Virus record (IMG/VR): IMGVR_UViG_3300049324_000002
Coordinates: 82,491-146,490 of that record
Strand: one strand, 5' to 3'
DNA from: a virus
DNA: 64,000 nucleotides
Below are positions 5,560-59,084 of the stretch, in pieces; position 1 is the stretch's first letter, and each line of letters opens with the position of its first letter. The notes beneath the pieces are model-generated. The model did not search any database. It was not told the origin of the DNA and was given only the letters and a program-made list of their open reading frames with translations. The position numbers and the translations under genes are program-made.

Positions 5560-6524
5560 CAGCCCACCACCTCCCCATCCCGCGCGTCGTGCCCAATCAA
5601 GAACCGCTCATCTTTGGCAGAAGACTCCAAGTCAGCAACGAACCGAACCTCAGAGCCCGTAGGCGCCGACCGCAGCTCCACAGGAGGCAACGTCCACACC
5701 CGGAAACCATTACCCTGCACCAACATCTTGCCAGCCTTCAAACTCATAATCTTACCAGTCACCAGAGTAACACCAGACGGGATAGGCAAATACGGTGCAG
5801 GAATAGGACCACTCACCACACGCATCACCGCAGAAACCTGACGCTCCGTCAACGTCCCACGCGTCACCAAATCCTCAGCAAGCGAGCAATAAAAGCACTT
5901 CTCAGCACCAACACAACCCGCAGTAACATGCTCCTGAACCGTCCGGTACAAAAACCCAGACACCCGCCTATTCTGCGGAGACGCAGCCAACCACTCACGC
6001 CTCGTCTGGTCGATCTTCGTCCAACGCTCCGCAGCCTCAGCCGGAACAGCCTCCTCAGCCGCCCGCGCCTTCTTCCGCATCCCAGCCACGAACTCGCGCA
6101 ACGCGCCCGCTCGAGCGGCAACCTCAGACATCTTCGCCGCACCCATCGAAGCAGCACAATCCACACCAGTCGTAATGACACCCGACTCGCCGTCAATATC
6201 AGGACGCCACGACCACACCACCGCATAACGAATATGTGCACCACAGATGGAACACTGAGACAACGCACGACGATCACCCACCGCACGACGCGCGTACCGA
6301 GCAGCCTTCACCTTCTGCTTCTCAGCGAACGACAACCACGCACCCGGGACACGAGCACGCGTCACCAACGCAGCAACATCATCCTTAGCGTTGCCAGCAT
6401 AAAGATCAAGAACATCCACGAACACATAGTGCTCAGGGACAAGAACACCAACACGATGCTCGTCAACACGCTGCGTGGCCATCACGCCTCCCTGCCTTGG
6501 GGAAACCTTCTCGGTGTTCGTCAT
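5559..6524 (-). CDS. Zinc-binding protein of MTN leaderless class, 321 aa
   Basis: ATG at 6524 lies exactly 6 nt after a -10 (TAACCT), so the mRNA is probably leaderless; the protein begins MTNTEKVSPR. A knuckle CSICGAH at about residue 91, followed by GVITTGVDCAAS, suggests a zinc site. The middle is an Ala/Arg-rich helix, then CVGAEKCFYC and a beta-rich C-terminal third. I do not recognise the family; nucleic-acid binding is a guess from the zinc and basic content. It is the first gene of an operon running left. Confidence 0.85.
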   Translation of the reverse strand: MTNTEKVSPRQGGVMATQRVDEHRVGVLVPEHYVFVDVLDLYAGNAKDDVAALVTRARVPGAWLSFAEKQKVKAARYARRAVGDRRALSQCSICGAHIRYAVVWSWRPDIDGESGVITTGVDCAASMGAAKMSEVAARAGALREFVAGMRKKARAAEEAVPAEAAERWTKIDQTRREWLAASPQNRRVSGFLYRTVQEHVTAGCVGAEKCFYCSLAEDLVTRGTLTERQVSAVMRVVSGPIPAPYLPIPSGVTLVTGKIMSLKAGKMLVQGNGFRVWTLPPVELRSAPTGSEVRFVADLESSAKDERFLIGHDARDGEVVG

Positions 6525-14216: not shown

Positions 14217-14492
14217 TCACCTCCTCACACGCCACGAATCTCTGGCAAACACAACAACCTTGTTCTGATCAAAAGAAACCAACACCACAAACATCCCACC
14301 CGGGCCATGACTCACAGACGAAGCAACACAAGAAATCGATTCCTCCGCAGTCCACCCCAACGCAAAAGCAGTATCAACCTGCGCCTCAACCAAACGATAA
14401 TTATTGCGAAGCTGAAAATTCAACTCATCAACCCAAGACTGCGCCTCATCATCAAACTCAGGCTCCGTCACCAACCTCGAAGTGTTCGTCAT
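14217..14492 (-). CDS. Tandem-family protein, 91 aa (copy 5, MTN start)
   Basis: ATG at 14492 begins ATGACGAACAC and lies 6 nt after TAGGAT, so it can be read as leaderless, though CGGTAGGA also makes a fair SD. It has SRLVTEPEF, AQSWVDELNFQL and FVVLVSFDQNKVVVF, the family features. First gene of the leftward operon holding the other four copies. Confidence 0.85.
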   Translation of the reverse strand: MTNTSRLVTEPEFDDEAQSWVDELNFQLRNNYRLVEAQVDTAFALGWTAEESISCVASSVSHGPGGMFVVLVSFDQNKVVVFARDSWRVRR

Positions 14493-15117: not shown

Positions 15118-15477
15118 ATGGGACCCAACCATAAAGGACCCGTATGGGACCCATTGGAAAAATCGAAAATAGTTACTATGAAAATCGGTAGCTCCAAAAC
15201 TGGGAGCGGCTGGGAGCTAGCTTGGAACTCCCAGGTCAGAAAGGAGATCGTGAATGCGTATGCATGGGACCCCGCGTGCAACTGGTGGGGGCTGATGCCA
15301 CGACGCAACGGGACTCCGACGATGGGTCCCCCTATAAGCCAAATCCTAGATACAATCCTACCACACATCGTAGAACCAGTCAAGCTAGTAGGATCACACG
15401 ATTGGGTGACTAGGCGAGGGCTAACGGAGGGCCGCGCACATACAACCCACACAGAGGGCAAAGCAAAAGCACAATGA
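15118..15477 (+). CDS. Plus-strand hypothetical protein, 119 aa
   Basis: Open from an ATG without a clear SD; ATG at 15178 is an alternative start. It is Trp-rich (WELAWNSQ, WDPACNWWGLMPRRNG) with a polar Thr/Lys tail. It shares the phrase ATGGGACCC with the preceding gene several times, so the DNA may contain a repeat independent of coding. Moderate confidence that it is a gene. Confidence 0.45.
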   Translation: MGPNHKGPVWDPLEKSKIVTMKIGSSKTGSGWELAWNSQVRKEIVNAYAWDPACNWWGLMPRRNGTPTMGPPISQILDTILPHIVEPVKLVGSHDWVTRRGLTEGRAHTTHTEGKAKAQ

Positions 15478-16435: not shown

Positions 16436-16627
16436 TCAGCTAAGCGATTTAAGCGGAACCCAAGAAATGCGATTACTACCATCAAATCTCACCGGAACCG
16501 TACCATCATCGGAAACAGGCCCCATAACATAAGCCTGACCAATCTTATCCGTATCAAAACCCACATTCACATAAACTTCGGAGTCCTTGAAAATCCTGGA
16601 GGGATCGATCCATTTGGAGTTCGTCAT
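16436..16627 (-). CDS. SH3-like protein with MTN start, 63 aa
   Basis: ATGACGAACTC start 6 nt after TATGCT. The end, DDGTVPVRFDGSNRISWVPL, resembles the closing strands of the 11413/11602 small-domain family. Expected to be leaderless. Confidence 0.8.
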   Translation of the reverse strand: MTNSKWIDPSRIFKDSEVYVNVGFDTDKIGQAYVMGPVSDDGTVPVRFDGSNRISWVPLKSLS

Positions 16628-17225: not shown

Positions 17226-17465
17226 TCACGCCACTTCGAGTTGGTCAGCAACCAAACCTGAACAAATCTTTTCCACTCCACCCTCAACCGACGACGATTC
17301 AAAGCGGCAGGAAAGGCCCCCGTCACGATTTGCGAACGTCATCGAGTAGGACCACGTAACCGCGTGCACGTAAACCGGTAACGAGTTGGGAACCAAAGTG
17401 ATTGGCACTAAAACCGACCCAATCACCGCAACGATCGAAGCAAGCACACCCATGATGTTCGTCAT
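17226..17465 (-). CDS. Membrane-anchored protein with MTN start, 79 aa
   Basis: ATGACGAACAT start. A hydrophobic N-terminus (GVLASIVAVIGSVLVPITLV) is followed by an exported-looking domain with two Cys (GLSCRFES, EKICSGL). The upstream DNA lacks the good TATGCT/TTGCGT pair found elsewhere (CGACAT in the -10 position), so its promoter may be weak or different. Confidence 0.75.
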   Translation of the reverse strand: MTNIMGVLASIVAVIGSVLVPITLVPNSLPVYVHAVTWSYSMTFANRDGGLSCRFESSSVEGGVEKICSGLVADQLEVA

Positions 17466-18032: not shown

Positions 18033-18248
18033 TCAGAACTTAGTTGCACCATAAACGGCACCGCCAAGAGCGATCACAGACAGCAAGGCGAAAGCAATCG
18101 CGTCCAACGGGTGCGGGCTCGTGATCAATGAAGTGGCATAAGCACCACTCACCATCGACACCAACAGCAAGAAGAAAGCCATCACCACATCAGGAAGCTT
18201 AGCGATTCGAGAGGACTTCGAGGACTTGGGGGATTCGGTGTTCGCCAT
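18033..18248 (-). CDS. Two-TM small membrane protein, 71 aa
   Basis: Start ATGGCGAACAC (MANT), a one-base variant of the shared start, 6 nt after TATGCT. A Ser/Lys-rich N-terminus is followed by two TM helices (VVMAFFLLLVSMVSGAYA and IAFALLSVIALGGAVYG). Function unknown. Confidence 0.8.
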   Translation of the reverse strand: MANTESPKSSKSSRIAKLPDVVMAFFLLLVSMVSGAYATSLITSPHPLDAIAFALLSVIALGGAVYGATKF

Positions 18249-18354: not shown

Positions 18355-19005
18355 TCAAGCAGTCAGCAAACGCAGGTTCTGAGAACCCAACACATAAGCC
18401 ATACCAGTCAAAAGAACACCAATCAAAAGACCGGCAAGACCATCCCACACACCAGAACCAGTAGCCATTGTCAAACTCAAACCAATCGAACCAAGAACAC
18501 AACCAATCATATCAGCAGTGTCCTCAGATAAAACAGTTTTCGCATTCACATTAGTAGTGGTGCGAAGCAATTCGATCCAACCAATACCTCTCGAAACACG
18601 CTCCTCATTTAATGCTTTATAAGCATTCCACCAAGAAGTGGCCTCCAAACAGAACGAGATAGCCAAAACAAGAATACCAACCCCATTCAGTGAATTAGAA
18701 ACCTCATCACCGAACACTGAACGAATACCCTCGTAAATGGCGTACAAACCACCAATCACAAACATATTCACAGAAGCAACCAACGCCCAGAAGAACTGCG
18801 CCTTACTCCAACGCTTTGAGTGCCACACACCACCCAAAAGAATCAATTCAGTGGAGCTATCAACCAATGAGTGCGCCGCTTCAGACAACATAGCGGCAGA
18901 ACCAGTGAGAAAACCAATTCCCGCTTTAGCAACGAAGATCGTCGTGTTCACACCCAACGCCCAAACGACGGGGCCTGAACTGTGGGTTTCCGTGGTGTTC
19001 GTCAT
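18355..19005 (-). CDS. Cation diffusion facilitator (CDF) transporter, 216 aa
   Basis: LTGSAAMLSEAAHSLVDSS carries the CDF TM2 site H45xxxD49, and LSEDTADMIG matches the TM5 metal site region. About six TM helices can be traced. CDF proteins exchange Zn, Fe, Mn or similar ions for protons. Usual members are about 300 aa; this one lacks the C-terminal cytoplasmic metal-sensing domain. ATG at 19005 carries the shared ATGACGAACAC start behind its own promoter. A metal exporter in a phage-like genome is unusual and suggests host manipulation during infection. Confidence 0.9.
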   Translation of the reverse strand: MTNTTETHSSGPVVWALGVNTTIFVAKAGIGFLTGSAAMLSEAAHSLVDSSTELILLGGVWHSKRWSKAQFFWALVASVNMFVIGGLYAIYEGIRSVFGDEVSNSLNGVGILVLAISFCLEATSWWNAYKALNEERVSRGIGWIELLRTTTNVNAKTVLSEDTADMIGCVLGSIGLSLTMATGSGVWDGLAGLLIGVLLTGMAYVLGSQNLRLLTA

Positions 19006-19949: not shown

Positions 19950-20291
19950 TTACGACCGAACAGCGTGAATCTGGGCAAGAACCTCATCAGACAAATCCAC
20001 CACACCCATATCTTCAAGAACAGAAAGCGCGCCCTCAATGTCACCCTCACCCGGACCATCCGCACACATCTCAATAACCGCATTCAACAAACCACGATCA
20101 CCCAACAAACGCATTCCCAAACGCGACACAACAGCGCTCACAGAAGCGTGCTCCTCCAACAAATCAGAACGACCAGCGGTTGACAATTCAATCATTGAAG
20201 TCACCGCACCATCAAAAGCCTTTGCAAGCGTAGAATCCAGAGGACCGGCAAACACGAAATCAGCCATTTCATTTCCCTCGATGTTCGTCAT
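19950..20291 (-). CDS. GPLD-family helical protein, MTN start, 113 aa
   Basis: ATGACGAACAT start with its own promoter. It shares with the 21246 product GPLDxxxxKAFD, RLGMRLLGxR and a closing LxDxVxAQ helix, so the two are paralogues. Mostly helical; no known family. Confidence 0.8.
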   Translation of the reverse strand: MTNIEGNEMADFVFAGPLDSTLAKAFDGAVTSMIELSTAGRSDLLEEHASVSAVVSRLGMRLLGDRGLLNAVIEMCADGPGEGDIEGALSVLEDMGVVDLSDEVLAQIHAVRS

Positions 20292-20336: not shown

Positions 20337-20603
20337 CTAGCGATTCAGGGGAACGCCCGCAGCGACAGACAGAGCAGCATCACGAGCGGCGGCCAAACGA
20401 TCCCGGCCAGCGGCCGTCAGGCGCACCCGCAGACGCACAACACGACCGCGACGCACCGACACCACCTCAGCCAAACCAGCGGACACCACCTCGTCAACAG
20501 TCGACAGAAGCGACGCACCCACCTCAACCAACTCAGGCTCACGACCAGCCAGCTCCAGCGCGCTGAAAACCAACCGAGGCCGGGAAAACTTTGTGTTCGT
20601 CAT
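20337..20603 (-). CDS. Winged-helix-like protein, MTN start, 88 aa
   Basis: VDEVVSAGLAEVVSVRRGRV, then RLRVRLTAAGRDRLAAARD, reads like the recognition helix, wing and last helix of a MarR-type winged-helix domain. A DNA-binding regulator is plausible, small for the family. Leaderless-type start at 20603. Confidence 0.75.
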   Translation of the reverse strand: MTNTKFSRPRLVFSALELAGREPELVEVGASLLSTVDEVVSAGLAEVVSVRRGRVVRLRVRLTAAGRDRLAAARDAALSVAAGVPLNR

Positions 20604-20657: not shown

Positions 20658-21143
20658 CTAGCAAACCTCAAGAGCAGAGCGCAGCACCCAACCAACACAC
20701 GAAGTGCTACCGCCCCGACGCACCCAAGTCACCCGGACCGATTCATCGTCAAGCGCACCACGCGCGCACCAAACAATTGCACCTTTACTAACACGCACAT
20801 ACGTATCACCATCAGATAAAGAAACAACAGTCAACAAACGACACTTAACACGCTCAGAAGTAATGTCAGGATTAATCATTGCACCGGCTTGAGCAATTAC
20901 AGTAGCGGGACTAGAAACAGGTAATGGCTCTTTGGCATAATCACCAGTACCATTCTTACAATCACGCCTATCCTTTTGCACACATCGAACAAACAACGAA
21001 ACAAGGTAACCAATCAACAACATCAACCAAAAGACACCAGTAATCGTAAAATATGTCATGGGAGAAACGAATCCAGTAATGAATTCAAGGGCAGTGAAAC
21101 CACCCCACCAAGCAATGGAATGAATCGCAATAGTGTTCGTCAT
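20658..21143 (-). CDS. Two-TM membrane protein, MTN start, 161 aa
   Basis: Two N-terminal TM helices (about residues 9-27 and 31-53) are followed by a cytoplasmic Cys-containing part with a barrel-like end (RVSKGAIVWCARG, VRVTWVRRGGSTSC). Start at 21143 by the conserved ATGACGAACAC. No family recognised. Confidence 0.8.
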   Translation of the reverse strand: MTNTIAIHSIAWWGGFTALEFITGFVSPMTYFTITGVFWLMLLIGYLVSLFVRCVQKDRRDCKNGTGDYAKEPLPVSSPATVIAQAGAMINPDITSERVKCRLLTVVSLSDGDTYVRVSKGAIVWCARGALDDESVRVTWVRRGGSTSCVGWVLRSALEVC

Positions 21144-21619: not shown

Positions 21620-21868
21620 TCAGTACTCGAAACGAGGGAAGTCAGGAATATCAATTCCCTGCTCTTCCATGATTTCAGAAGCAACACGCAATGCGGACTT
21701 CAACTCAATAGCAGCAATAGCCACATTCCGAGCCGCACGCTTAATCGTTTCGACGTCAGTCACATCCAAGAAATCTTTACCATTCTCAGCAAGAGAATCG
21801 AGAGTGGACTCGACACAACCAGCAATGTCACTCACGGTGATGGCTGGCTTTTTCGTTGTGTTCGTCAT
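21620..21868 (-). CDS. Helical protein, MTN start, 82 aa
   Basis: ATGACGAACAC start with its own promoter. A helical hairpin-like sequence (VETIKRAARNVAIAAIELKS) with an acidic aromatic end (IPDFPRFEY). Unknown function. Confidence 0.8.
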   Translation of the reverse strand: MTNTTKKPAITVSDIAGCVESTLDSLAENGKDFLDVTDVETIKRAARNVAIAAIELKSALRVASEIMEEQGIDIPDFPRFEY

Positions 21869-21976: not shown

Positions 21977-22051
21977 CCACCTAGGTAGGGAGTCGAACCC
22001 TACTTACCACCCCCTCACGAAGTGGCGTCCTTCCGACTAAACGACTAGGTA
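21977..22051 (-). tRNA. tRNA-like gene with irregular anticodon arm
   Basis: A cloverleaf can be drawn. The acceptor TACCTAG pairs with CTAGGTG, the D arm GTTT/GGAC carries GG in its loop, and a normal T arm has GTTCGACTC. The anticodon arm does not fit the rules. It pairs best as CCACTT/GGGTGG around CGTGAGG, or with a standard-length loop gives GUG without U33. The anticodon therefore cannot be assigned (His GUG or Ser UGA are candidates). It has its own MTN-type promoter and terminator, so it is a real transcription unit. No CCA encoded. It may be a tRNA mimic. Confidence 0.6.
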
Positions 22052-22074
22052 GCTGGTGTTTCGGTGATGTAAGA

Positions 22075-22184: not shown

Positions 22185-22406
22185 TCAAGAGCCATACGCA
22201 CGGCGCAGCTCAGTCAACGCGTCAGCCACCTGACGGACCTGAGCGGCATAAGGCAACCGAAACCACGTGCCAGCACCCAAGTGAGCATCAACCTCAACCG
22301 GTGCCCATTTCCAAGCCAACCCAAGATCAGAGCTAGCAGTCAGCTCAGTACCATCAGAAGCGACAATGGACATTTCGCCAATCAGAGCAGATCCGGTGTT
22401 CGTCAT
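22185..22406 (-). CDS. Hypothetical protein, MTN start, 73 aa
   Basis: ATGACGAACAC start. It reads GEMSIVASDGTELTASSDLG, then WFRLPYAAQVRQVADALTEL, with a short beta part and a helix. Unknown function. Confidence 0.8.
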   Translation of the reverse strand: MTNTGSALIGEMSIVASDGTELTASSDLGLAWKWAPVEVDAHLGAGTWFRLPYAAQVRQVADALTELRRAYGS

Positions 22407-24422: not shown

Positions 24423-24458
24423 CTACCGAAGGGGAAAACCCCCTGCGGTGTTCGTCAT
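24423..24458 (-). CDS. Leaderless leader peptide MTNTAGGFPLR
   Basis: ATGACGAACAC start at the usual 6 nt from TATGCT, but the frame stops after 11 codons. Its stop is CGG TAG within CGGTAGGA upstream of the 23986 gene. It looks like a leader whose translation delivers ribosomes to the next start. Confidence 0.6.
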   Translation of the reverse strand: MTNTAGGFPLR

Positions 24459-24563: not shown

Positions 24564-24839
24564 TCAGCGGACGGGAGGGCAGGGCAACCCAAGATCAGGG
24601 ATCTGGTAACCAGGGACCACAGAGCGACCACAGCGGAAGCACAGAGCCTCAGGCTCAAGAGCAATCGCCGCCAACGCATCATCCAATTTCTCAAACGTGC
24701 CGACCGTTGAAGTGGGCATTTTATCAACAACACGCTCCACCACAAACAAACCAATCGACAACTCAACCAACTTACAGCTACGGAGGTAAGCGAAACGACC
24801 GCCACCCACAGTGGCATTATTCCATCTGATGTTCGTCAT
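24564..24839 (-). CDS. Cys-knuckle protein, MTN start, 91 aa
   Basis: ATGACGAACAT start. The N-terminal part is beta-rich (GGGRFAYLRSCKLVELSIG), then a helix, then ALCFRCGRSVVPGY with a later Cys (GLPCPPV), probably one zinc. Unknown function; single-gene unit with its own promoter and terminator. Confidence 0.8.
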   Translation of the reverse strand: MTNIRWNNATVGGGRFAYLRSCKLVELSIGLFVVERVVDKMPTSTVGTFEKLDDALAAIALEPEALCFRCGRSVVPGYQIPDLGLPCPPVR

Positions 24840-24875: not shown

Positions 24876-25133
24876 TCAGTAGCGGCCAGAAAACATGGAG
24901 CCGGGAGGAGGACCATAACCAAGAACACCAACCATACGGTCAAACTCGTTTTCCGCGCGGGTTTCCTCCGTGCCAGCCTCAGCCGCACGAAGCCAAGCAC
25001 TCTCAGCCCAAATCTCAGCCGCCGACTCAAGCTGCTGAACCATGATCTGATCCCAACACGACCGGACCTCGTCAACCGTAGAATGACGGTGCGGAACGCC
25101 TGGGATGTTGCCACATCGAATGGTGTTCGTCAT
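24876..25133 (-). CDS. Helical protein, MTN start, 85 aa
   Basis: ATGACGAACAC start at 25133. It reads HSTVDEVRSCWDQIMVQQLE, then an acidic Ala-rich helix and a Pro/Gly tail. The HxTxxxVxxCW phrase resembles C-terminal tags found in several actinobacterial phage proteins, but no function follows. Confidence 0.8.
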   Translation of the reverse strand: MTNTIRCGNIPGVPHRHSTVDEVRSCWDQIMVQQLESAAEIWAESAWLRAAEAGTEETRAENEFDRMVGVLGYGPPPGSMFSGRY

Positions 25134-25457: not shown

Positions 25458-25733
25458 TTAAGTTCTGCCAAGACCATTCAAAAACTCATAAGCCATGGTC
25501 TCATTCAAAGCAGCAGGAGCAGTATTGGTCGGGGGAACAATAACATCAGCAGCGACCAATTCATTGTAGCATTCAATCTGCCGTGGGATCATCTCAATGA
25601 AATCGTGAGTAGCCTTACGATTACGCATCACCCGCATACGGAAAGTAAGCTCACCATTCCGAAAACAAATACGACCCTCACGAGCACAAACAATGAGAAG
25701 CCTGTAAGTCGACCCACCTCTGCTATCAGCCAT
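25458..25733 (-). CDS. Hypothetical protein, 91 aa
   Basis: ATG at 25733 overlaps the end of the 25726 gene by 8 nt. It reads YRLLIVCAREGRICFRNGEL, FRMRVMRNRKATHDFIEMIP, then a helical end. Second gene of a two-gene unit. Unknown function. Confidence 0.8.
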   Translation of the reverse strand: MADSRGGSTYRLLIVCAREGRICFRNGELTFRMRVMRNRKATHDFIEMIPRQIECYNELVAADVIVPPTNTAPAALNETMAYEFLNGLGRT

Positions 25734-26019
25734 TACCTTTCACCTGTTCACGAATAGAACCCACAAGAACGCCAACATAATCGACATTCTCATCGCCAGC
25801 GTTATCAAAAGCATCCTGAACAGCCTGAGAAGCTACAGGATAACGAGACTCCAATTCATCAATCATCCAAGCTCGAGCCAATTTCTCAGAAGAATCAAGA
25901 GAATCGACATCAGTATCCAAAACCAACAAAGCCTGAATCAAATTGATGTCAGAAGTATTCCTCAGAATATGATTCCGACGCGTGCCAATATTTTCAGAAG
26001 AACTCGATGTGTTCGTCAT
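25726..26019 (-). CDS. Acidic helical protein, MTN start, 97 aa
   Basis: ATGACGAACAC start. It reads IQALLVLDTDVDSLDSSEKL, then a helix AWMIDELESRYPVASQAVQD, acidic overall. Unknown function. Confidence 0.8.
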   Translation of the reverse strand: MTNTSSSSENIGTRRNHILRNTSDINLIQALLVLDTDVDSLDSSEKLARAWMIDELESRYPVASQAVQDAFDNAGDENVDYVGVLVGSIREQVKGNG

Positions 26020-26025
26020 GCAAGA

Positions 26026-26054
26026 AGCATAGCATGACATCGCACACCACGCAA
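26026..26054 (-). promoter_or_regulatory. MTN promoter for 25726-26019
   Basis: TTGCGT, 17 nt, TATGCT, 6 nt to ATG. The upstream element CTAAAGATTCTTG is present. Confidence 0.85.
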
Positions 26055-26089: not shown

Positions 26090-26121
26090 CGGACCCCTCA
26101 ACCCTTGCGGGGAGGGGTCCG
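26090..26121 (-). terminator. Terminator after the antisense hairpin
   Basis: 10-bp stem CGGACCCCTC/GAGGGGTCCG, 12-nt loop, 5 nt downstream of the hairpin at 26127-26171. Confidence 0.85.
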
Positions 26122-26171
26122 TGGCAGTGCGGCCCGGTAGATATTTATGACGAACACCCTTCGGGCCGCAC
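26090..26171 (-). ncRNA. Candidate antisense RNA against MTN mRNA starts
   Basis: A perfect 10-bp stem (26127-26136 with 26162-26171, GTGCGGCCCG/CGGGCCGCAC) presents a 25-nt loop. On the minus strand, the direction of transcription here, the loop reads GGGTGTTCGTCAT, the exact complement of ATGACGAACACCC, the 5' end of the leaderless mRNAs. A terminator hairpin follows at once, giving a compact two-hairpin RNA of about 82 nt. It lies 22 nt after the stop of the 26193 gene; no separate promoter is clear, so it may be a processed 3' end. Read on the + strand the same loop encodes a 10-codon frame starting MTNTL, but no plus-strand promoter is seen. Confidence 0.55.
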
Positions 26172-26192
26172 CAGCCTAGGGAGCCTAACAGA

Positions 26193-26519
26193 TCAGACAG
26201 ACGGCAAATCAACCAGGAGGCCAAGCACCGCCCGAGAAAACCGAGCAAACGGTACGTTATTCAATCTCACACGATAGATCTCAGGACCAAAATGCTTACG
26301 GCCACCCAATTCAATCACCTCGTAAACACGCAAGTCAAAGTCGCCAGCTTCGATATCCTCAACTCGACATGTGACAGGAAGCTCACTGTGCTTATAAAGA
26401 CCATTCGAGGACATACGAACAGCATCAGTATTCAGCGGGACAAAACCAGAATCAAGAAGAAACTCGACGCAATCCAGAGTATTTACAATGGACTTTGAGG
26501 TATTCGCTGTGTTCGTCAT
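26193..26519 (-). CDS. Hypothetical protein, MTN start, 108 aa
   Basis: ATGACGAACAC start. It reads LDCVEFLLDSGFVPLNTDAV, a beta-rich middle (FDLRVYEVIELGGRKHFG), and a hydrophobic end. The candidate antisense RNA lies immediately downstream on the same strand. Unknown function. Confidence 0.8.
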   Translation of the reverse strand: MTNTANTSKSIVNTLDCVEFLLDSGFVPLNTDAVRMSSNGLYKHSELPVTCRVEDIEAGDFDLRVYEVIELGGRKHFGPEIYRVRLNNVPFARFSRAVLGLLVDLPSV

Positions 26520-26890: not shown

Positions 26891-27238
26891 TCAATCAGAA
26901 GGATAAATAACAACGGAAAACGAGTAATAAGGCTCCAAACGAACCGAAACAGGAATCTGCAAAGGAAGTTCCATAGCCCTACGCAAAGCACCACGCAAAG
27001 GCATACCAAACTCGTAATAAAGAGTGTCAGCAATCTCTCCGCTCACACCGCCAGCGGCAGCACGCAGAGCCCATTCATCAGGACCACCCTCCCAAACAAT
27101 ACCGAAATGACCAGTCTCCATATAATTGTCAATCAACATAGGATGGCCGCAATCATCCATCAAGCCCTCATAACGCAACTCAATGGCTCTAAGAACGCGC
27201 TTAGCATTCTCACGGGAAACACTCTCGATGTTCGTCAT
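26891..27238 (-). CDS. Hypothetical protein, MTN start, 115 aa
   Basis: ATGACGAACAT start. A helix (AKRVLRAIELRYEGLMDD), then HFGIVWEGGPDEWALRAAAG, a helical segment, and final strands (VRLEPYYSFSVVIYPSD). The phrase around IVWEGGPDEWA resembles short actinophage proteins of unknown role. Confidence 0.8.
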   Translation of the reverse strand: MTNIESVSRENAKRVLRAIELRYEGLMDDCGHPMLIDNYMETGHFGIVWEGGPDEWALRAAAGGVSGEIADTLYYEFGMPLRGALRRAMELPLQIPVSVRLEPYYSFSVVIYPSD

Positions 27239-27385: not shown

Positions 27386-27883
27386 TCAGTCGAAGAACAG
27401 ATCCACAGGACGACCATTCAACAGCATCCGATCCTGACCAATAAATCCAGGTGAGCACGGACACATAGAACAGCCAGCATTGATACTGAACTTCCACTCA
27501 TCAAACTGCGGCAAAACAATCTCAATGCCGCACTCACGTAAAGCCTCGGCAATCGTAGCCAACACACCATTGTGCTGCATGTACTCTCGAGCATCCTTAA
27601 TAGACCGACGCTGGAAAGCAGCCAACACAGGATCCTTTACATCAGGATTCCGATCATTAGCTTCACGGACCAATTCAGTCTCACGATCACTAAAACCAGG
27701 AACGAAAGCATCCAACACACCATACGCCCGAACCTTAGCCCAGTAAGAACGGCTATCTCTTCCAGAAGGAAACGGGCGAATAACCAAGTGAACCTTAAAC
27801 TTCGAACCACAAACCTGATAATGTCCATTCTTGTCGATGGAAACGATGGCGGAGCCGGTAGATGTCTCAACTGTGTTCGTCAT
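27386..27883 (-). CDS. Cys-cluster protein, MTN start, 165 aa
   Basis: ATGACGAACAC start. A beta-rich front (HYQVCGSKFKVHLVIRPF) and a helical middle are followed by INAGCSMCPCSPGFIGQDRM, a tight CxxCxC site found near the C-terminus of several phage proteins; it may bind metal. Unknown function. Confidence 0.8.
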   Translation of the reverse strand: MTNTVETSTGSAIVSIDKNGHYQVCGSKFKVHLVIRPFPSGRDSRSYWAKVRAYGVLDAFVPGFSDRETELVREANDRNPDVKDPVLAAFQRRSIKDAREYMQHNGVLATIAEALRECGIEIVLPQFDEWKFSINAGCSMCPCSPGFIGQDRMLLNGRPVDLFFD

Positions 27884-28820: not shown

Positions 28821-28982
28821 TTACTCGTCTCCCAATTCCAGAATCAAATCGATTTGGGAACGGACCGCGCGCTCACGTTCAGTGATCCGCCAAGCCTCAC
28901 GACCCAGCTCAACCAGATCCGCACGGAGCTGCGCCAACTTGCGCTGCCTGAAATCCAAGATCTTAACCTGAGTGTTCGTCAT
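28821..28982 (-). CDS. Coiled-coil peptide, MTN start, 53 aa
   Basis: ATGACGAACAC start at 28982. One long heptad helix (LDFRQRKLAQLRADLVELGR onward). Likely an oligomerising or partner-binding peptide. Confidence 0.75.
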   Translation of the reverse strand: MTNTQVKILDFRQRKLAQLRADLVELGREAWRITERERAVRSQIDLILELGDE

Positions 28983-29152: not shown

Positions 29153-29542
29153 TCAGCCAAACTGGACAATACCACGACAATCCGGGCACGCCCACCCATG
29201 CGCCTCACAACCCCGCGCAGTCCAACGCTCGTAATACTGCCAATCATCCTCAGACAAAGCAATACAATCACACCACGTTCTAGAAACATTCAATCCATCA
29301 GAAGAAGCAATAACTTCACTCGGTGGAATGTGAATATAACGACCATCCCACACTCGGGCAGCGACAATCAGAGAAGGAGTACCAAACCTAACAACCTCAG
29401 TACCAATCTCAGCAGTCAAAACCTTTTCAGCATTCTCCCGAGCACGCGCCGCCCAATCAGCAGCCTCAGCGTAATCGTGAGCAGTCAGAGCGCTCCACAG
29501 GAGCACCGCAGGAGGCTTAGAAGTATCTGTAGCGTTCGTCAT
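29153..29542 (-). CDS. Zinc-ribbon protein, MTN start, 129 aa
   Basis: Start ATGACGAACGC (MTNA). A helical N-terminal half (YAEAADWAARARENAEKVLT) and a beta-rich middle are followed by TWCDCIALSEDD and EAHGWACPDCRGIVQFG, a C-terminal CxxC ribbon. Unknown function. Confidence 0.8.
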   Translation of the reverse strand: MTNATDTSKPPAVLLWSALTAHDYAEAADWAARARENAEKVLTAEIGTEVVRFGTPSLIVAARVWDGRYIHIPPSEVIASSDGLNVSRTWCDCIALSEDDWQYYERWTARGCEAHGWACPDCRGIVQFG

Positions 29543-39157: not shown

Positions 39158-39925
39158 TCAAACCGAGGTGACTCCCAGAGCCTCCCGCAGCGGAGCACCC
39201 ACCGCCCACAAAGCACGCTGCGTCACGATCGCCCGTGCCACGTCCGGGGCCGAACGATGCTGCCACTCCCCCTCCAACCACGAAGCAACATCACGATTAC
39301 CAAAACAAAACCGTGGAGACTCATCCAAATCAATAAAAGTATTCCCAGACTCACTATCAATGTACCATTTAATAATTCCCTGCTCTAGTTTAGAACCAAC
39401 CAAACCAGTCAAATTGCTAGAAGTATCCACAGGACGATAACTGACCTGGCCACGCACCCCAGAAGGAACAACAACTCGAGGACAATGCAAACCTAGAATC
39501 GAGAAATCAAAACGAGCCGCGCCAGCACCACAGATATGAACAGTCTCATCAGGATCGCACACATTAGCAATATTATCCAAAAGCAACCGCTCAAGCTCAA
39601 AACCATCACGTAAAACTAAATCAGGATTACACGCAATATGATCCTGAAACAACAAAGACTTCTCAGCCATACTACGAGCAAACTTCTCGGTCTCACCAGA
39701 CCGCTGCTCGTTATTCTTCCAATAAGCTTTCTCATTACCACGCTTAAAAGGAATAATCTGTGGGCTATGCCCCAACTTATTATTATAGATAGACAAATAA
39801 CGATGCTGCATAGGAGATCTCATAGAACCACTAGGATCAGTGATAGCCCAAGCGCCCTCCAACAAAGTAATGTCAGAGACTCTCAACCCAGTAGCTTCGA
39901 AGTCAATAGCAAGGAAGGCAGTCAT
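39158..39925 (-). CDS. DEDDh 3'-5' exonuclease, 255 aa
   Basis: Motif I FLAIDFEATGL (Asp and Glu near residues 7-9), motif II GAARFDFSIL, and motif III HRSAPDVARAI (H-x4-D) are in the right order for a DnaQ/oligoribonuclease-type nuclease. ATG at 39925 overlaps the TGA of the clamp gene (ATGA). Co-translation with the sliding clamp suggests a proofreading or recombination partner in phage DNA synthesis. Confidence 0.88.
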   Translation of the reverse strand: MTAFLAIDFEATGLRVSDITLLEGAWAITDPSGSMRSPMQHRYLSIYNNKLGHSPQIIPFKRGNEKAYWKNNEQRSGETEKFARSMAEKSLLFQDHIACNPDLVLRDGFELERLLLDNIANVCDPDETVHICGAGAARFDFSILGLHCPRVVVPSGVRGQVSYRPVDTSSNLTGLVGSKLEQGIIKWYIDSESGNTFIDLDESPRFCFGNRDVASWLEGEWQHRSAPDVARAIVTQRALWAVGAPLREALGVTSV

Positions 39926-41256
39926 GAGATCCAATCACTCCGAACTTGTGATAAAGCCGACTGAACAGTCTTAGAACCATCCTGAACCACAACCCAAGCA
40001 GGACGTGACCTAGAACGTGGCTGCCCCAACAACAACGTCACCGACCCCGCATCAGTAGCATCATCAGACAAAGGAGACGCAGCAACAGCCGCCTTCACCG
40101 CCTTAGACAACGTATCCAAATTAAGTACGACAGTACGTGCAGAAGCAACAGTCTCCGAACCATCTACAACAAACTTACCATCGATCGTTTCCTCAGACAA
40201 ATCACCATACCGATTACGAGTAGCAATCTGAATCTTGCCGTCCTGAGGGAACCCAACACGCAAAGCAACAGCCGACGTCTCTTCATCAGAAGTAGGAGTA
40301 GCCCTACGCAAAGCATCAATCAACACATCAGCATTAACAGTCAAAGCATCACGATTCTCCGTCAACGGAGCAACCAAAGCAGACCGAGCAGTAGAAGGAA
40401 ACTCCCGCATCAACTTAGCAACAACAACACGATCCGGTGCATTCAACGCACCAATCTCAGCAATGACATGAAAATCAGTATTCGCAATCCTCAACTCAGG
40501 CGAGTCATTACGATCCAACATCTTAGTCAACAAATCAACACCAGTGGAAGGGAGATCGAAAGCCAACTCAACAGGCAGAGCACCCCTCACCCGGGCAAAG
40601 CACGAATCATCCGTCGAAACAACATCCCCACCAGACATACTAACCTGAGTAATAAAATCTTTATTAGAATCCCTAGACACAGCAAAACGCGTGCCATCAA
40701 AAGCGCGACGCAAAGCGTGTCGATCAACATCACACCACGTGATATCACCAAGATCAGGAGAAGCAGGATAATCCTGCGCTGCAGCCACCCGCAACGACCA
40801 CGAAGCAGTCCCCGACGACAAATGCATCATCGTGCCCTCACAACGGATCGTGATAGACGCGCCAGCCGCCTTAGACACCACAGACGCAAACCGAGACGCA
40901 CCAATCAGCACCCGGCCAGGATGCTCAACCTGCAACGCAGACGTCGAAGACAACACCCACGACGTAGAATCAGAACCAATCAAAACAAGCTTATCATCAG
41001 AAACTTCAATAACAACATTCTTAAGGGGAGGGTAGAAATCTCGAGTAGGAACGACCAACATCACCTGAGCAAGCATGCTCGAGAAAACCATACGAGACAT
41101 GGTAAAAGCAGGAGGAGCATCCGGCTCCTCCGCAACCATATCAAGCTCATCCAAACCTGCAGTATCTCCACTCAAAGCACTAACAGCCTCAGTCAAATCA
41201 TCAGCACCCAAAGCAATACCAAGATCTGCCAACATCTCCACGCCAGCGTCAGACAT
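39922..41256 (-). CDS. DNA polymerase III beta sliding clamp-like protein, 444 aa
   Basis: Three repeats of the clamp fold can be followed after an acidic N-terminal extension of about 50 residues. They include the strand motifs LVVPTRDFYPPLKNVVIEV, WSLRVAAAQDYPASPDLGD, and LRRAFDGTRFAVSRDSNKDF. Bacterial DnaN is about 370-380 aa, so the N-terminal extension and a longer third domain are extra. ATG at 41256 follows AAGGGG. A phage-encoded clamp implies it recruits its own or host polymerases. Divergent, but the fold call is supported by these phrases. Confidence 0.85.
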   Translation of the reverse strand: MSDAGVEMLADLGIALGADDLTEAVSALSGDTAGLDELDMVAEEPDAPPAFTMSRMVFSSMLAQVMLVVPTRDFYPPLKNVVIEVSDDKLVLIGSDSTSWVLSSTSALQVEHPGRVLIGASRFASVVSKAAGASITIRCEGTMMHLSSGTASWSLRVAAAQDYPASPDLGDITWCDVDRHALRRAFDGTRFAVSRDSNKDFITQVSMSGGDVVSTDDSCFARVRGALPVELAFDLPSTGVDLLTKMLDRNDSPELRIANTDFHVIAEIGALNAPDRVVVAKLMREFPSTARSALVAPLTENRDALTVNADVLIDALRRATPTSDEETSAVALRVGFPQDGKIQIATRNRYGDLSEETIDGKFVVDGSETVASARTVVLNLDTLSKAVKAAVAASPLSDDATDAGSVTLLLGQPRSRSRPAWVVVQDGSKTVQSALSQVRSDWIS

Positions 41257-44482: not shown

Positions 44483-45468
44483 TTCAGCGCCCCCGCAATA
44501 GCAGCAGTCAAAACTTCCTCAGCAAGAGACATCTCAGTAACAGACAAATTCATAGCGCGGACCTCTTCCAACACAGACTCCACAGAAGTCACAGACACCT
44601 GAGTCTGACCAACCGCACTAAGAAACACATTCAACCTATCACGATAATCAGTCTTAGCAACATGCTCAGCAAGACGGAAAACCTCACTAGCAGGTGGAGC
44701 CGACTTCAACACAACACGCTCAAACGCTTCACTACCCGAACGATTCGAATCCCAAATCGTTACGGCCGGAATACGACTAATATCCTCTTCATGCAAAGAA
44801 CCACGCGATAACGCACCCTGATTACAAAACACAACGCCATCAGTATCAAACACACCATGACAAGGATGAACATGACCGTAATAACAATAACCAAGATTAC
44901 CCATCCACCCGGCCACGATAGGAGCCGGAACATTCTCCCACGGCAACTCCTGACCAACCGGATACAACGGAGCATGCGTAACAATCAGTGACTCAGAAAT
45001 TCTCTGAGGCTCCAGCACCCAATCAGTAAAAGCCTTACCCGCATTCTGCCAATCCTGCTGCCACGAAACACCATACAAAGGCAAATCGCAATCAGCGCCA
45101 TACTCATCAGGAGCCCAACCAGACAACAACCTAGCACCACTATGTAACAAAACACCAAAAGGCTGAGTCTCATGAATCGACTCCACACGATCCTGCTGAA
45201 TATCGTGATTACCAATCACAAAATATACAGGCGCACGAAAAGACTGCACAACACCAATCATGCGCTGCACAGTACGATGACTAGTACGCATAGGAATCTT
45301 ACTATGGAAAATATCACCAGCAAACACAACCGCGTCAACATAACGTTTACCGGCAATATCAACTACTTCATCAAGCATCCTAAACAATTGATCATTATAA
45401 TCATCAGTGCAGTTACTCGGTGGCTTATCAGATAAATGGAGGTCACCTATGCACAGGATCGTAGTCAT
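44479..45468 (-). CDS. SbcD/Mre11-like metallophosphoesterase, 329 aa
   Basis: The five phosphoesterase motifs are clear: GDLHLSD (8-14), VFAGDIFHS, VIGNHDIQ, LIVTHAPL and GHVHPCHG. That is the two-metal Mre11 nuclease core; the C-terminal capping/ATPase-binding part is short and helical. ATG at 45468 follows CGGTAGGA by 7 nt. With the 46497 ATPase it should form an SbcCD-type complex that opens hairpins and protein-blocked ends. Confidence 0.92.
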   Translation of the reverse strand: MTTILCIGDLHLSDKPPSNCTDDYNDQLFRMLDEVVDIAGKRYVDAVVFAGDIFHSKIPMRTSHRTVQRMIGVVQSFRAPVYFVIGNHDIQQDRVESIHETQPFGVLLHSGARLLSGWAPDEYGADCDLPLYGVSWQQDWQNAGKAFTDWVLEPQRISESLIVTHAPLYPVGQELPWENVPAPIVAGWMGNLGYCYYGHVHPCHGVFDTDGVVFCNQGALSRGSLHEEDISRIPAVTIWDSNRSGSEAFERVVLKSAPPASEVFRLAEHVAKTDYRDRLNVFLSAVGQTQVSVTSVESVLEEVRAMNLSVTEMSLAEEVLTAAIAGALK

Positions 45469-45512: not shown

Positions 45513-46007
45513 CTACCCAAGCAGCTCCTCCGCAACAGCCAACACACCATCAAGACCAACATAACGAACATACACACGGTACACAGCGTTACCGTTACTA
45601 TCGCGTTCTCGCACACTCCGAGCATCATAACAACCTCGAGGCTGAAAAGCTTTCAACCTACCCTGCTTTATTAAAGAAGCTCTATTTGATAATCTAGCTC
45701 GTTCTTTAACATTAGAATGAGGATTACTGTAAAGACCAATTTCATCAATACATACCCAATCGCCATGATGCTCTTTAACAACCGCAGCAACCTCGTGCAT
45801 ACCGCCAGTAGTCACTACAGTATCAGTTCTACGTTTAAGAATTAGAACATTGGACGCAGGGACATGCGATACATCATTCTGGCCGTCTGCTAGAACTTCT
45901 AGCATATCATCAGACGTATAATTCTCAAATCTCCCCAACTTAGCAAGACCAGACTCAAAAAAGATAACTAGGTCTCCCCACCTAAATCCTCTGTCGATGT
46001 TCGTCAT
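45513..46007 (-). CDS. Hypothetical protein, MTN start, 164 aa
   Basis: ATGACGAACAT start 6 nt after TAGGAT, an outlier far from the main MTN series. A KOW-like front (RWGDLVIFFESGLAKLGRFE), then beta segments with HEVAAVVKEHHGDWVCIDEI, and a basic region NVKERARLSNRASLIKQGR. Unknown function. Confidence 0.8.
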   Translation of the reverse strand: MTNIDRGFRWGDLVIFFESGLAKLGRFENYTSDDMLEVLADGQNDVSHVPASNVLILKRRTDTVVTTGGMHEVAAVVKEHHGDWVCIDEIGLYSNPHSNVKERARLSNRASLIKQGRLKAFQPRGCYDARSVRERDSNGNAVYRVYVRYVGLDGVLAVAEELLG

Positions 46008-48670: not shown

Positions 48671-49381
48671 TTACTGCATGAAGTTAGTGGACTGTGACGC
48701 TCTGAAGTCTTCAGGTCGCATATGAATACCAAACTCACCAATATGCAAAGCACGCGAAACCTGAGGATGCACAAACGTCATACCAAAACGCGGCAGAATC
48801 CGACGTCGAATATTCCAATCCCAACCAGCCTCAGACCCGTCAGGATTCCCTGTCGAATAATCCTTATCCCACGTATCGCGAAGGAACTTATACCAACGAT
48901 CACGCCACGTCCCCCACACCAAAGGACAAAAATCAGCAGCCGTATACATCACAGAAGGATCGCCTTGCTCATGAAAACTAGAAGCACAAACACCCAACAC
49001 ATCTAATTCATCTCGATAAGTCATGTGAGCTTCAGACATATACTCGAGCAAACCAGAAGACACAATAATGTCTTCCTCAACCAAAACAGTGAAGTCGGCG
49101 CCAGCCTTAAAAGAACTATCTAATGCATACCAAGGATTACCTAGAACACCAAGACGGCCCTCATTACACACCACAACCGTATCAGTTAACTCAGACTCAG
49201 CTATCCACCTATTAATAGCAAGTAGCGTATCCTCTTGGAACTCACCAGGCTCCACAAAGAAACTAAACGACCACTTATCTAAATCACGAACATGCAACCA
49301 TGAAGCAAGAGTCGCACGCAAATACGCAAGTCTATGCTCGTACGAGGACACCGTCATAACAACAGCCAAAGATTTATTCAT
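48671..49381 (-). CDS. Glycosyltransferase-like protein (GT-A fold), 236 aa
   Basis: ATG at 49381 overlaps the dehydrogenase stop. LAVVMTVSSYEHRLAYLRAT is the first strand and helix of a GT-A domain, and FTVLVEEDIIVSSGLLEYMS holds the acidic metal triad (EED, as in GNT-I-like enzymes). Later WGTWRDRWYKFL, then HPQVSRALHIGEFGIH. Part of a three-gene sugar module. Confidence 0.8.
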   Translation of the reverse strand: MNKSLAVVMTVSSYEHRLAYLRATLASWLHVRDLDKWSFSFFVEPGEFQEDTLLAINRWIAESELTDTVVVCNEGRLGVLGNPWYALDSSFKAGADFTVLVEEDIIVSSGLLEYMSEAHMTYRDELDVLGVCASSFHEQGDPSVMYTAADFCPLVWGTWRDRWYKFLRDTWDKDYSTGNPDGSEAGWDWNIRRRILPRFGMTFVHPQVSRALHIGEFGIHMRPEDFRASQSTNFMQ

Positions 49382-50628
49382 GACTTACGTCCAATACGAA
49401 TAACAGTAACATCCTCTCGATCAGGAACGAACCCAAACGGATCCAGCACCACCGACCCAGGCGCATAAGCCAACGTACTAAAATCAGTATGCCTAGTTCC
49501 AATCACATACAAAGCCTTACCACTAACCTCATGCTCTCCATCAACATACGGATCATACGAACTAGCATCAATACCACGATCCATCAACATACTAAGAAGT
49601 AACAAAGCAGGAGAACCATAAACCAAATCAGACTGCGGCTTATACGACTTACCTAAAAGCAATACATTCAACCCAGTAAGATCGTGCCAATGCTCAACTA
49701 ACCCGGCCAACCACTCCGTCTGCGATTCTCTAGCACTCGCCATATAACCCATTAAATCAGTAGACAAATCGAGTCGCTCGGCCAACCAAGACATTGCAAT
49801 TAAGTCCCTAGGATGGCAAGCGCCACCGTCACCCATCCCACCGCGCATATAAGCAGGAGAAACAACACGATCTGTAGCCAAAGACAAAGCATCAACCACA
49901 AGGTCACAATCAGCACCAGTCTTATGCGAAACTTCCATTAACATATTAGCGAACACAATCTTCATACTAATGAACGTATTATAAGCAACCTTGACTAACT
50001 CAGCAGTATCGATAGGAGTAACAAACAAAGGCTTATCATGGACTAAACTATAAACCTCCCTTAGCCTATCGACATGTTCACTCTCACCATCATCGGAACC
50101 AACCAAAACAAACTCAGGATTCTCTAAATCACTAATAGTAGAACCCATAGCGATAAAGAACGGATTATAGATAAGGTGAGCATAAGGATTCTGCAGAGAA
50201 CGTAAATGACGACTGAACGTGCCAGGCAACGCTGTCGACACCACAACCGCCGTCACCGACCGACGCTGCCGCTCCGCTGCCCCGGCCGCATCCCGAACAG
50301 CCTGCGCCAAAAACCCGTACTCGAAGTCACGGCGCTCAGCAGGCATACGATTCTCACCGCCATACGCAGGAGCATGTGGAGTCTGAACCGCCACGAACAC
50401 CACGTCCGACTCAGCGACCACACCATCGATCGTGTCAGCAAGCTTCAGCGACGTCCGCGCCAGCAACGCCTCAATACCCGCCTCACGAGGAGGAGGCGCC
50501 ACGCCATCTAAAATCCTATCAGGCAAATCCGAAACATCATAACCAATAACCTGATGTCCATGATACGCAAACGTAAGAGCGCAAGGCAATCCGAGCTTGC
50601 CTAAACCGACCCAGCCGATTTTAGCCAC
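49378..50628 (-). CDS. UDP-glucose/GDP-mannose dehydrogenase family enzyme, 416 aa
   Basis: NAD-binding GLGKLGLPCALTFA (8-21), a helical middle with NTFISMKIVFANMLMEVSHK, and catalytic GGACHPRDLIA (Cys in GGxCxxRD), then the C-terminal UDP-binding half with GKSYKPQSDLVYGSPA. These enzymes oxidise a nucleotide sugar to the uronic acid. GTG at 50628 follows AAGG by 7 nt. Near the normal length (about 430 aa). It may supply a uronic acid donor to the neighbouring transferases. Confidence 0.92.
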   Translation of the reverse strand: MAKIGWVGLGKLGLPCALTFAYHGHQVIGYDVSDLPDRILDGVAPPPREAGIEALLARTSLKLADTIDGVVAESDVVFVAVQTPHAPAYGGENRMPAERRDFEYGFLAQAVRDAAGAAERQRRSVTAVVVSTALPGTFSRHLRSLQNPYAHLIYNPFFIAMGSTISDLENPEFVLVGSDDGESEHVDRLREVYSLVHDKPLFVTPIDTAELVKVAYNTFISMKIVFANMLMEVSHKTGADCDLVVDALSLATDRVVSPAYMRGGMGDGGACHPRDLIAMSWLAERLDLSTDLMGYMASARESQTEWLAGLVEHWHDLTGLNVLLLGKSYKPQSDLVYGSPALLLLSMLMDRGIDASSYDPYVDGEHEVSGKALYVIGTRHTDFSTLAYAPGSVVLDPFGFVPDREDVTVIRIGRKS

Positions 50629-58094: not shown

Positions 58095-59084
58095 TCACGA
58101 CCTAGAAAAACCGCTGACCAAGCTTCGCAATAAATCCTGCAGGAAAGGTATGCCATGAGGGAAGACGCTGGGGAGCCACTGCAGCATCACCGCATACGCT
58201 AGCGCAATCATCATGAAAATGAGAATCCATTTAACAATGACCTTCTCAAAAAACCCACCAGTATCGAACGGCAGCGGCGAGTAAAACTCCTCCCAAGTAA
58301 GGGGAGAAAGAAAAGCCAGTCCAGCCGTGGTGCACGTATCAGCAAAATCATGCGACAACATGCCCAGAGCGACGCACGTGCCCCACAACCAACCCATGTC
58401 TACAAGATGATCCGCCAACCCGACCACGCCGAAATGAATGGCACCAGTCACGACATACAACGCAAGTACCGGACCGGCAAACACGAGATCCCCGGCCAGA
58501 CCAACGGTAGTCACGAAAACGATAACCGAAATCCACCAAGGCCCAGCGGCGCACATATAACCAATAACCAGTCCAACAAATATAGCCGTAAACACAGAAT
58601 GAGTGAATCCACGATGCGCAGATCTCCACATTCGTTTACGACCTACGAGAAACCATAACCCCTGCGGCAAGTAAGAACACAATGACGTACGGAACCGTCC
58701 GGCCTGAAAATACCCATTCCAAGCAGGTGGATCATGACCACGTCTCGTCAACGTATAGAGAATGCGGTTAATCCAAACCACAATCATATGCAGTGGAAAT
58801 GTTACAGGTGGAAAGGCACGAGTTACAGTAGCGCCATGGTGGTCAATATCATTCCATTCACCAGCACCCCCCACAATGGCAGGCGCAATTAACACATCAG
58901 CGGCCCAGGTAATACCAATTAATTGAGCGCCAAATGCACACCCAGCGAGGCCCCAAACGACCCCCATCCGAACGTGCTGCCTGACTTCCACGGCCGTATA
59001 CCTCTCATCGGGGGAGATTGCAAATACCTGGGAGCCATGTTGCTCCAGATTTGTATCGTTGCACACTCCTACCCGTGAGACCAC
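58095..59084 (-). CDS. YdjM-type membrane-bound metal hydrolase-like protein, 329 aa
   Basis: GTG at 59084 follows GAGG. It reads GEWNDIDHHGATVTRAFPPV, SAHRGFTHSVFTAIFVGLVI, then GMLSHDFADTCTTAGLAFLS before PLTWEEF. The HRGxTHS and SHDFAD patterns are those of the YdjM/DUF457 family of inner-membrane metal-dependent hydrolases; eight or more hydrophobic segments. Homologues sit in Streptomyces plasmids and phages near transfer genes. Substrate unknown. Confidence 0.85.
   Translation of the reverse strand: MVSRVGVCNDTNLEQHGSQVFAISPDERYTAVEVRQHVRMGVVWGLAGCAFGAQLIGITWAADVLIAPAIVGGAGEWNDIDHHGATVTRAFPPVTFPLHMIVVWINRILYTLTRRGHDPPAWNGYFQAGRFRTSLCSYLPQGLWFLVGRKRMWRSAHRGFTHSVFTAIFVGLVIGYMCAAGPWWISVIVFVTTVGLAGDLVFAGPVLALYVVTGAIHFGVVGLADHLVDMGWLWGTCVALGMLSHDFADTCTTAGLAFLSPLTWEEFYSPLPFDTGGFFEKVIVKWILIFMMIALAYAVMLQWLPSVFPHGIPFLQDLLRSLVSGFSRS

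Follow-up and report, generated by a model that had tools for sequence, protein, structure and literature searches.

A pair of hairpins on the minus strand of a 64,000-nt stretch of viral DNA (the window; bases 82491–146490 of the 146,490-bp virus record IMGVR_UViG_3300049324_000002, G000) carries in one of its loops the exact complement of the sequence with which about 20 genes of the same phage are predicted to begin. The best reading of the sequence is that this is probably a functional, trans-acting antisense element that would cover the 5′ start shared by a phage regulon. The putative targets share ATGACGAAC, the MTN start, which reads at 20 predicted gene starts on the minus strand of the window and comprises the start codon and codons 2–3. 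Most of these starts are preceded by the promoter cassette TTGCGT-17-TATGCT-6-ATG, of which we counted 13 exact instances in the strict form and 18 with a looser rule that also required 30 or more codons of open frame. As 6 nt separate the −10 from the ATG, the MTN mRNAs of the window, most of them promoter-linked, are probably leaderless.

The two-hairpin element and its complementarity to the MTN starts

Hairpin A consists of a perfect 10-bp stem and a 25-nt loop, and the loop contains the exact complement of ATGACGAACACCC (plus strand, 26147–26159), both as described in an earlier note on this DNA (coordinates in Table 1). That note also took the loop to be presented open. This holds for CGUCAUA, which is left exposed, whereas GGUGUU is predicted to be paired to AAUAUC within the loop. 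Hairpin B follows after a gap of 5 nt and is presumed to be a terminator or a 3′-end stabiliser. The minus-strand RNA folds with −63.8 kcal/mol (z = −5.7, 200 shuffles). BLAST with the hairpin sequence gave no match, nothing in Rfam overlapped the element at E ≤ 1, and the only Rfam hits above the gathering threshold were tRNAs (L001, L100, L119, L307 and L310).

When G·U pairs were allowed, 19 of the 20 window starts paired with the loop over 11–13 nt, and the start at 16627 paired over 9 nt. With Watson–Crick pairs only, a 12-nt match was present at five starts and a 13-nt match at none, which corrects the pairing of up to 12–13 nt proposed earlier. Where starts depart from the loop complement, the changes mostly keep G·U pairing.

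Over the whole record ATGACGAACAC has 13 copies in gene orientation and a single inverted one, which lies in the loop of hairpin A. The earlier suggestion that this is the only inverted start is correct for ATGACGAACAC but not for the shorter ATGACGAAC, which is also inverted at 4093 (plus strand), outside any such hairpin. By chance, the sense strand of the full record should contain 0.02 (order 1) to 0.04 (order 3 Markov) copies of GGTGTTCGTCAT and 0.006–0.010 copies of the 13-mer anti-start. A geometric scan of the same strand (first stem of 5 bp or more, loop of 14–28 nt, then within 12 nt a second, GC-rich stem of 7 bp or more) returned three two-hairpin units, of which this element is the one that contains the anti-start. 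Chance alone is an unlikely explanation in the window genome. Since that genome by itself does not settle the matter, other genomes were compared.

Matched loops and starts in a second phage lineage

The cassette pattern led to G015 (IMGVR_UViG_3300013308_000029; 46,734 bp, GC 0.69), a relative of Microbacterium phage Zeta1847; this lineage is other than that of the window phage. G015 contains ATGACGAAC 13 times in reverse and once in forward orientation, and Zeta1847 has 11 starts in gene orientation and one inverted copy (element at about 44960–45030). Each single inverted copy lies in a hairpin loop that is followed after 2 nt by a strong second hairpin: GCTCGCCC-[CTGTTGTTCGTCATAAAGCACCC]-GGGCGAGC and then GGCCCCCGA..TCGGGGGCC in G015, and CCCGC-[AGGTGTTCGTCATACCACC]-GCGGG and then an 11-bp stem in Zeta1847 (loops in square brackets). 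The starts read mostly ATGACGAACAAC in G015 and ATGACGAACACC in Zeta1847, and the matching complement is found in each loop, so that each loop matches its own start (ACAAC in G015, ACACC in Zeta1847). Start positions 10–13 are ACCA or ACCC in 11 of 11 cases in Zeta1847, where the loop has GGTG; G015 starts have AACA in 9 of 13, and its loop has TGTT. The stem sequences are entirely different between the genomes despite the matched loops. Complementarity between loop and start, which the earlier note had named in advance as the feature to look for in related genomes, is kept in Zeta1847 and G015 with one anti-start each; seed–target complementarity is partly kept in a further contig, G064.

Pairing of each loop with the starts of its own genome gave mean duplex energies of −18.8 (G000, n = 18), −19.1 (G015, n = 13) and −20.9 kcal/mol (Zeta1847, n = 11), and 0 of 200 shuffled loops reached the energy of the own loop. 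In all three phages the 3′ side of the loop is predicted to pair with the 5′ portion of the anti-start (weakly in G015) and to leave the tip CGUCAU unpaired (probability 0.96–1.0 in G000, 0.97–1.0 in G015 and 0.82–1.0 in Zeta1847). Opening the inner stem costs 3.4–7.0 kcal/mol, compared with a duplex gain of about 19–21. The net pairing energies after opening are −11.9, −15.7 and −14.5 kcal/mol for G000, G015 and Zeta1847, respectively (19, 13 and 11 starts; the calculation contains no pseudoknot or entropy terms). Across the three start sets, the strongest pairing of the G015 loop was with the G015 starts and that of the Zeta1847 loop with the Zeta1847 starts. The element has two features of a trans-acting antisense small RNA, complementarity to multiple mRNAs beyond chance and, in the predicted structure, an exposed seed.

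Ordinary tandem terminator hairpins, in which the anti-start is a chance match or the debris of an inverted start, are quite an unlikely explanation. Strong intergenic hairpins are common in the window phage and hairpin B is similar to them, yet the sense-strand 12-mers are expected 0.04 (G000), 0.002 (G015) and 0.005 (Zeta1847) times under an order-3 Markov model and are observed once in each genome, where the copy is part of a two-hairpin unit and fits the starts found there. GTTCGTCAT is absent from the gene (sense) strand in all eight phages with fewer than three cassette starts. Two loose patterns run against IMG/VR (anti-start before GGGC and before CCCC) returned 27 and 20 stretches, and G015 is the only two-hairpin unit among these 47. 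No homology was found between the proteins flanking the element in the window phage and those in the Zeta lineage, and a shared gene block therefore does not explain the shared design; no DNA match to the 7-kb stretch around the element was found in the phage collection.

Short asymmetric repeats near starts can also be protein sites, as are the stoperators of Cluster A (PMC3203893). A phage protein might bind the ATGACGAAC duplex, and the inverted copy would then be an extra operator, in the manner of stoperators near terminators. We consider this improbable given that in three genomes the inverted copy is part of a hairpin loop, and that ATGACGAAC begins precisely where the RNA 5′ end is predicted and is missing from the cassette promoter of tRNA-Ser. 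Because this promoter, at 22068, has the cassette without ATGACGAAC, we do not regard ATGACGAAC as part of the promoter. The gene concerned is tRNA-Ser(TGA) at 21977–22051, which the cassette drives; ATCACC replaces ATGACG at the start point (22051–22068, minus strand).

Nine genomes or genome pieces have at least three cassette ATGACGAAC starts (G000, G015, Zeta1847, Honk, Cen1621, G016, G020, G060 and G064). The full element is present in three of them, a partial one in one and none in five; three of the four with at least 10 starts have it. The Honk-related contig G064 has two hairpins upstream of an MTN gene, with only TTCGTCA carried in the loop, and the homologue of this gene in Zeta1847 also lies after the Zeta1847 unit. 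G020 and G060 resembled further cases, as a forward and a reverse ATGACGAAC are separated by about 100 nt in each, and were rejected: both use MTN starts in divergent gene pairs in which each gene has its own promoter, and both lack an anti-start hairpin. The 6-bp stem around the inverted copy in G020 is a chance stem built of promoter sequence. BLAST matches of the G015 hairpin region in Gordonia phages, Honk, Cen1621 and Zeta1847 (near gene 42–43) were also rejected, being terminators or unrelated. Helicase relatives are distant; of the 80 loci returned, 14 whole records were tested for ATGACGAAC, and a cassette family like that of the window was found in none of these 14. G009 has ATGACGAAC five times forward and once in reverse, and the two copies inspected (L103) are without a cassette promoter. 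In host genomes (GTDB collection) the cassette was found in six stretches, and because these scatter over unrelated taxa it is not a host trait at the stringency of that search.

A parallel in the SAS repeats of Cluster K

Start Associated Sequences (SAS) are short, highly conserved asymmetric 13-bp repeats at the gene starts of Cluster K mycobacteriophages, and Anaya, Adephagia, Angelica and CrimD each have one in the opposite orientation with no gene associated (PMC3203893). The passage on these repeats leaves open whether RNA or protein binds SAS and does not propose an antisense hairpin. Allowing up to 2 mismatches in nine Cluster K genomes, we counted forward and reverse SAS of 17/1 in Angelica, 14/1 in CrimD, 16/1 in Adephagia, 16/1 in Anaya, 15/2 in LilPharaoh, 17/1 in Amohnition, 17/0 in Keshu, 11/0 in TM4 and 19/0 in Pixie. 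The opposite SAS is in a hairpin loop in five of the nine. In Angelica, CrimD, Adephagia and Anaya it is the tip CCTCCTATCC of a long hairpin that lies downstream of another strong hairpin. LilPharaoh has CCTCCTATCC at the same place; folding of a longer stretch misses that stem, and the stem partners are kept in the alignment (its second reverse match, at 8188, has 2 mismatches and is at another site). In Amohnition the tip at this locus is a variant, CCTCCTTCCCC, and the one reverse match counted for that genome is elsewhere. Keshu and Pixie keep the locus with the tip replaced by another insert, and their hairpin may target something else. The hairpin region matched 143 phage records, and eight Cluster K loci were compared in sequence; the genomes being related, their conservation is partly due to descent.

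The anti-SAS of Adephagia (58682–58694, within a hairpin region at about 58,590–58,720) lies between gene 92 (end 58446) and gene 93 (start 58879), and late transcription is reported to begin in this gap (PMC11373665). In Angelica (58503–58850), the annotated gp92 overlaps the anti-SAS hairpin; no gene is annotated there in CrimD, Anaya or Adephagia, and gp92 may be spurious.

The window phage and Cluster K have in common an asymmetric sequence shared by many starts (SAS at 11–19 genes) and one opposite copy of it in a hairpin loop. They differ in that SAS is at the ribosome-binding site whereas the window repeat is at the AUG of a leaderless mRNA, and the sequences are unrelated. SAS is a GGGATAGGAGCCC-like 13-mer placed a few nt ahead of the start codon, and the window repeat does not have this form. 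In Microbacterium Cluster EF, SAS is GGGAAAGGACCCC (PMC7302621).

Predicted transcript, proposed action and known antisense RNAs

The predicted RNA would be either the 3′ end of the transcript of gene 26519–26193 or a separate transcript, about 86 nt long, that begins at a weak −10 immediately before the element. By eye, a TANNNT hexamer is found upstream in the window (TAGGCT), G015 (TAGACT), Zeta1847 (TAGAAT) and G064 (TAAGCT), in no case with a −35, and a start 12 nt past each would fall a few nt before the hairpin. These hexamers make weak candidate promoters; three of the four overlap a stop codon, and −10-like motifs of that kind occur about twice per kb on the minus strand of the window. 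The nearest upstream cassette start is a ATGACGAAC start in the window, G015 and Zeta1847 (324, 567 and 826 nt upstream, respectively). This arrangement, and the fact that no independent promoter was found, would suit a cis-acting element of the 3′ untranslated region in which the anti-start and the 5′ end of the mRNA that carries it pair with each other, for loop closure or control of that operon only. We regard such a role as unlikely, given that the loop complement follows the family consensus and not the parent start at 26519 (ACACAG, 11 of 13 pairing) and that a strong hairpin separates the start from the element in G015.

In the trans-acting reading that we prefer, hairpin B would end or protect the RNA and hairpin A would offer its tip CGUCAUA to AUGACG, with which about 20 leaderless mRNAs are predicted to begin. 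Pairing would start at the tip and zip to 11–13 bp as the weak upper stem opens; with the 5′-AUG covered, ribosome loading would be blocked, and one RNA could damp the whole MTN regulon. Because the parent gene is itself under the promoter cassette of the regulon, and the nearest upstream cassette start is itself a ATGACGAAC start in all three genomes, the outcome might be delayed negative feedback. Repression is the most likely effect on the regulon from what is known of leaderless initiation, which needs a free 5′-AUG. The same antisense RNA could instead activate, if it shielded the leaderless mRNAs against decay at their 5′ ends and so raised expression. Duplexes at the 5′ end can block 5′-to-3′ decay and the complementarity data fit equally, but the pairing covers the AUG itself, and we consider activation highly improbable.

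Several observations weigh against a functional antisense RNA. No cassette-like promoter was found upstream of the hairpin (the best candidate scores −10.5 and has rank 1262, compared with 7.1 or more for each of the 19 model starts), and the element sits in the 3′ untranslated region of a gene. The strong terminator that the earlier note placed 5 nt after hairpin A is a strong hairpin at that distance, but no U-tract follows it (CTGGCGTTTGGG / CTGGCGTTT follows); it lacks this part of an intrinsic terminator, defined as a GC-rich hairpin with a U-tract, and falls outside the terminator-like matches. Honk (10 starts) and Cen1621 (5) have no element and G064 has only a 7-nt version, and two lineages amount to few independent events. 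Nor is the window loop tuned exclusively to its own starts: its duplexes are stronger with the starts of Zeta1847 (−21.1) than with those of the window (−18.8), on which the Zeta1847 loop performs about equally well (−18.6). In the Cluster K stem alignment, built on six of the nine genomes (Keshu, Pixie and TM4 were excluded, their loop being replaced or missing), 96.6% of cells are paired and one pair has changed on both sides; shuffles were equal in 102 of 500, which indicates no covariation beyond shuffles. As a whole, the earlier interpretation is partly supported.

In the window, the best-scoring cassette promoter precedes a ATGACGAAC start with a frame of only 11 codons (24423–24458, minus strand), a decayed gene or a tiny peptide. 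Cassette-like promoters without a ATGACGAAC start are found at 15348, 38003 and 54807 (minus strand), two of them with GGTTCTACGATGT in the spacer, and may drive leadered genes or small RNAs. A variant cassette gene start, ATGGCGAACACC, lies at 18248 (minus strand); it pairs with the loop over 12 nt via G·U. No relatives of gene 26519–26193 were found. The window of this large phage also encodes a beta-clamp-like DNA polymerase III protein (39922–41256, minus strand) and a UDP-glucose/GDP-mannose dehydrogenase (49378–50628, minus strand).

Table 1. Positions in the window of the two-hairpin element, its neighbours and the MTN starts.
Feature	Position	Strand	Basis or remark
Hairpin A, carries anti-start	26127–26171	−	arms 26127–26136 / 26162–26171, 10 bp, 100% complementary, 25-nt loop
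Anti-start GGGTGTTCGTCAT in hairpin A loop	26147–26159	−	predicted exposed tip CGUCAUA
Hairpin B, GC-rich, strong	26090–26121	−	arms 26090–26099 / 26112–26121, 10 nt perfect, 12-nt loop
Possible −10, TAGGCT within TGTTAGGCT	26182–26187	−	RNA start near 26175; without −35; weak
Upstream (parent) gene, 108 aa, MTN start and cassette promoter	26193–26519	−	hairpins A and B in its 3′ untranslated region
Cassette promoter (TTGCGT-17-TATGCT-6-ATG) of next MTN gene	26020–26054	−	
Downstream MTN gene, 97 aa, PHROG 6135 (unknown function)	25726–26019	−	
Target start ATGACGAAC(ATC)	45999–46007	−	start list and pairing
Target start ATGACGAAC(GCT)	29534–29542	−	start list and pairing
Target start ATGACGAAC(ACT)	28974–28982	−	start list and pairing
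Target start ATGACGAAC(ACA)	27875–27883	−	start list and pairing
Target start ATGACGAAC(ATC)	27230–27238	−	start list and pairing
Target start ATGACGAAC(ACA)	26511–26519	−	start list and pairing
Target start ATGACGAAC(ACA)	26011–26019	−	start list and pairing
Target start ATGACGAAC(ACC)	25125–25133	−	start list and pairing
Target start ATGACGAAC(ATC)	24831–24839	−	start list and pairing
Target start ATGACGAAC(ACC)	24450–24458	−	frame after start of 11 codons only
Target start ATGACGAAC(ACC)	22398–22406	−	start list and pairing
Target start ATGACGAAC(ACA)	21860–21868	−	start list and pairing
Target start ATGACGAAC(ACT)	21135–21143	−	start list and pairing
Target start ATGACGAAC(ACA)	20595–20603	−	start list and pairing
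Target start ATGACGAAC(ATC)	20283–20291	−	start list and pairing
Target start ATGACGAAC(ACC)	18997–19005	−	start list and pairing
ATGACGAAC(ATC) start without cassette promoter	17457–17465	−	start list and pairing
Target start ATGACGAAC(TCC)	16619–16627	−	9-nt pairing only
Target start ATGACGAAC(ACT)	14484–14492	−	start list and pairing
Target start ATGACGAAC(ACC)	6516–6524	−	start list and pairing

If the antisense reading is true, a whole phage regulon would be under one short RNA, start sequence and loop would change together, and leaderless mRNAs, which have no Shine–Dalgarno site to hide, would have a dedicated repressor. More tentatively, actinophages with a shared start element may have repeatedly evolved a single hairpin RNA antisense to it as a master off-switch, for example from early to late, with the leaderless MTN starts of the window phage and the Zeta1847/G015 lineage and the SAS of Cluster K as the cases. 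This would explain the single opposite SAS of Cluster K and give a testable answer to the function of SAS, open since 2011, in a system with established genetics in M. smegmatis.

We know of no phage RNA that targets a single start sequence common to about 20 leaderless phage genes, and no antisense RNA against a shared phage start was found in the open PubMed Central literature, judged by titles and the beginnings of abstracts. Phage antisense and small RNAs include lambda OOP, P22 sar and P1 c4. PreS and VpdS are further phage-encoded small RNAs (PMC12197685). The RNA proposed here would resemble them as a phage RNA that acts by base pairing. A second likeness is to the C-rich-loop RNAs of staphylococci, of which RNAIII is one. 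In this type, as in RsaA (PMC3961350), a hairpin loop pairs with the translation start of an mRNA and blocks initiation; the staphylococcal RNAs are host-encoded and directed against the Shine–Dalgarno sequence, whereas the loop of the window phage would be directed against a repeated leaderless start.
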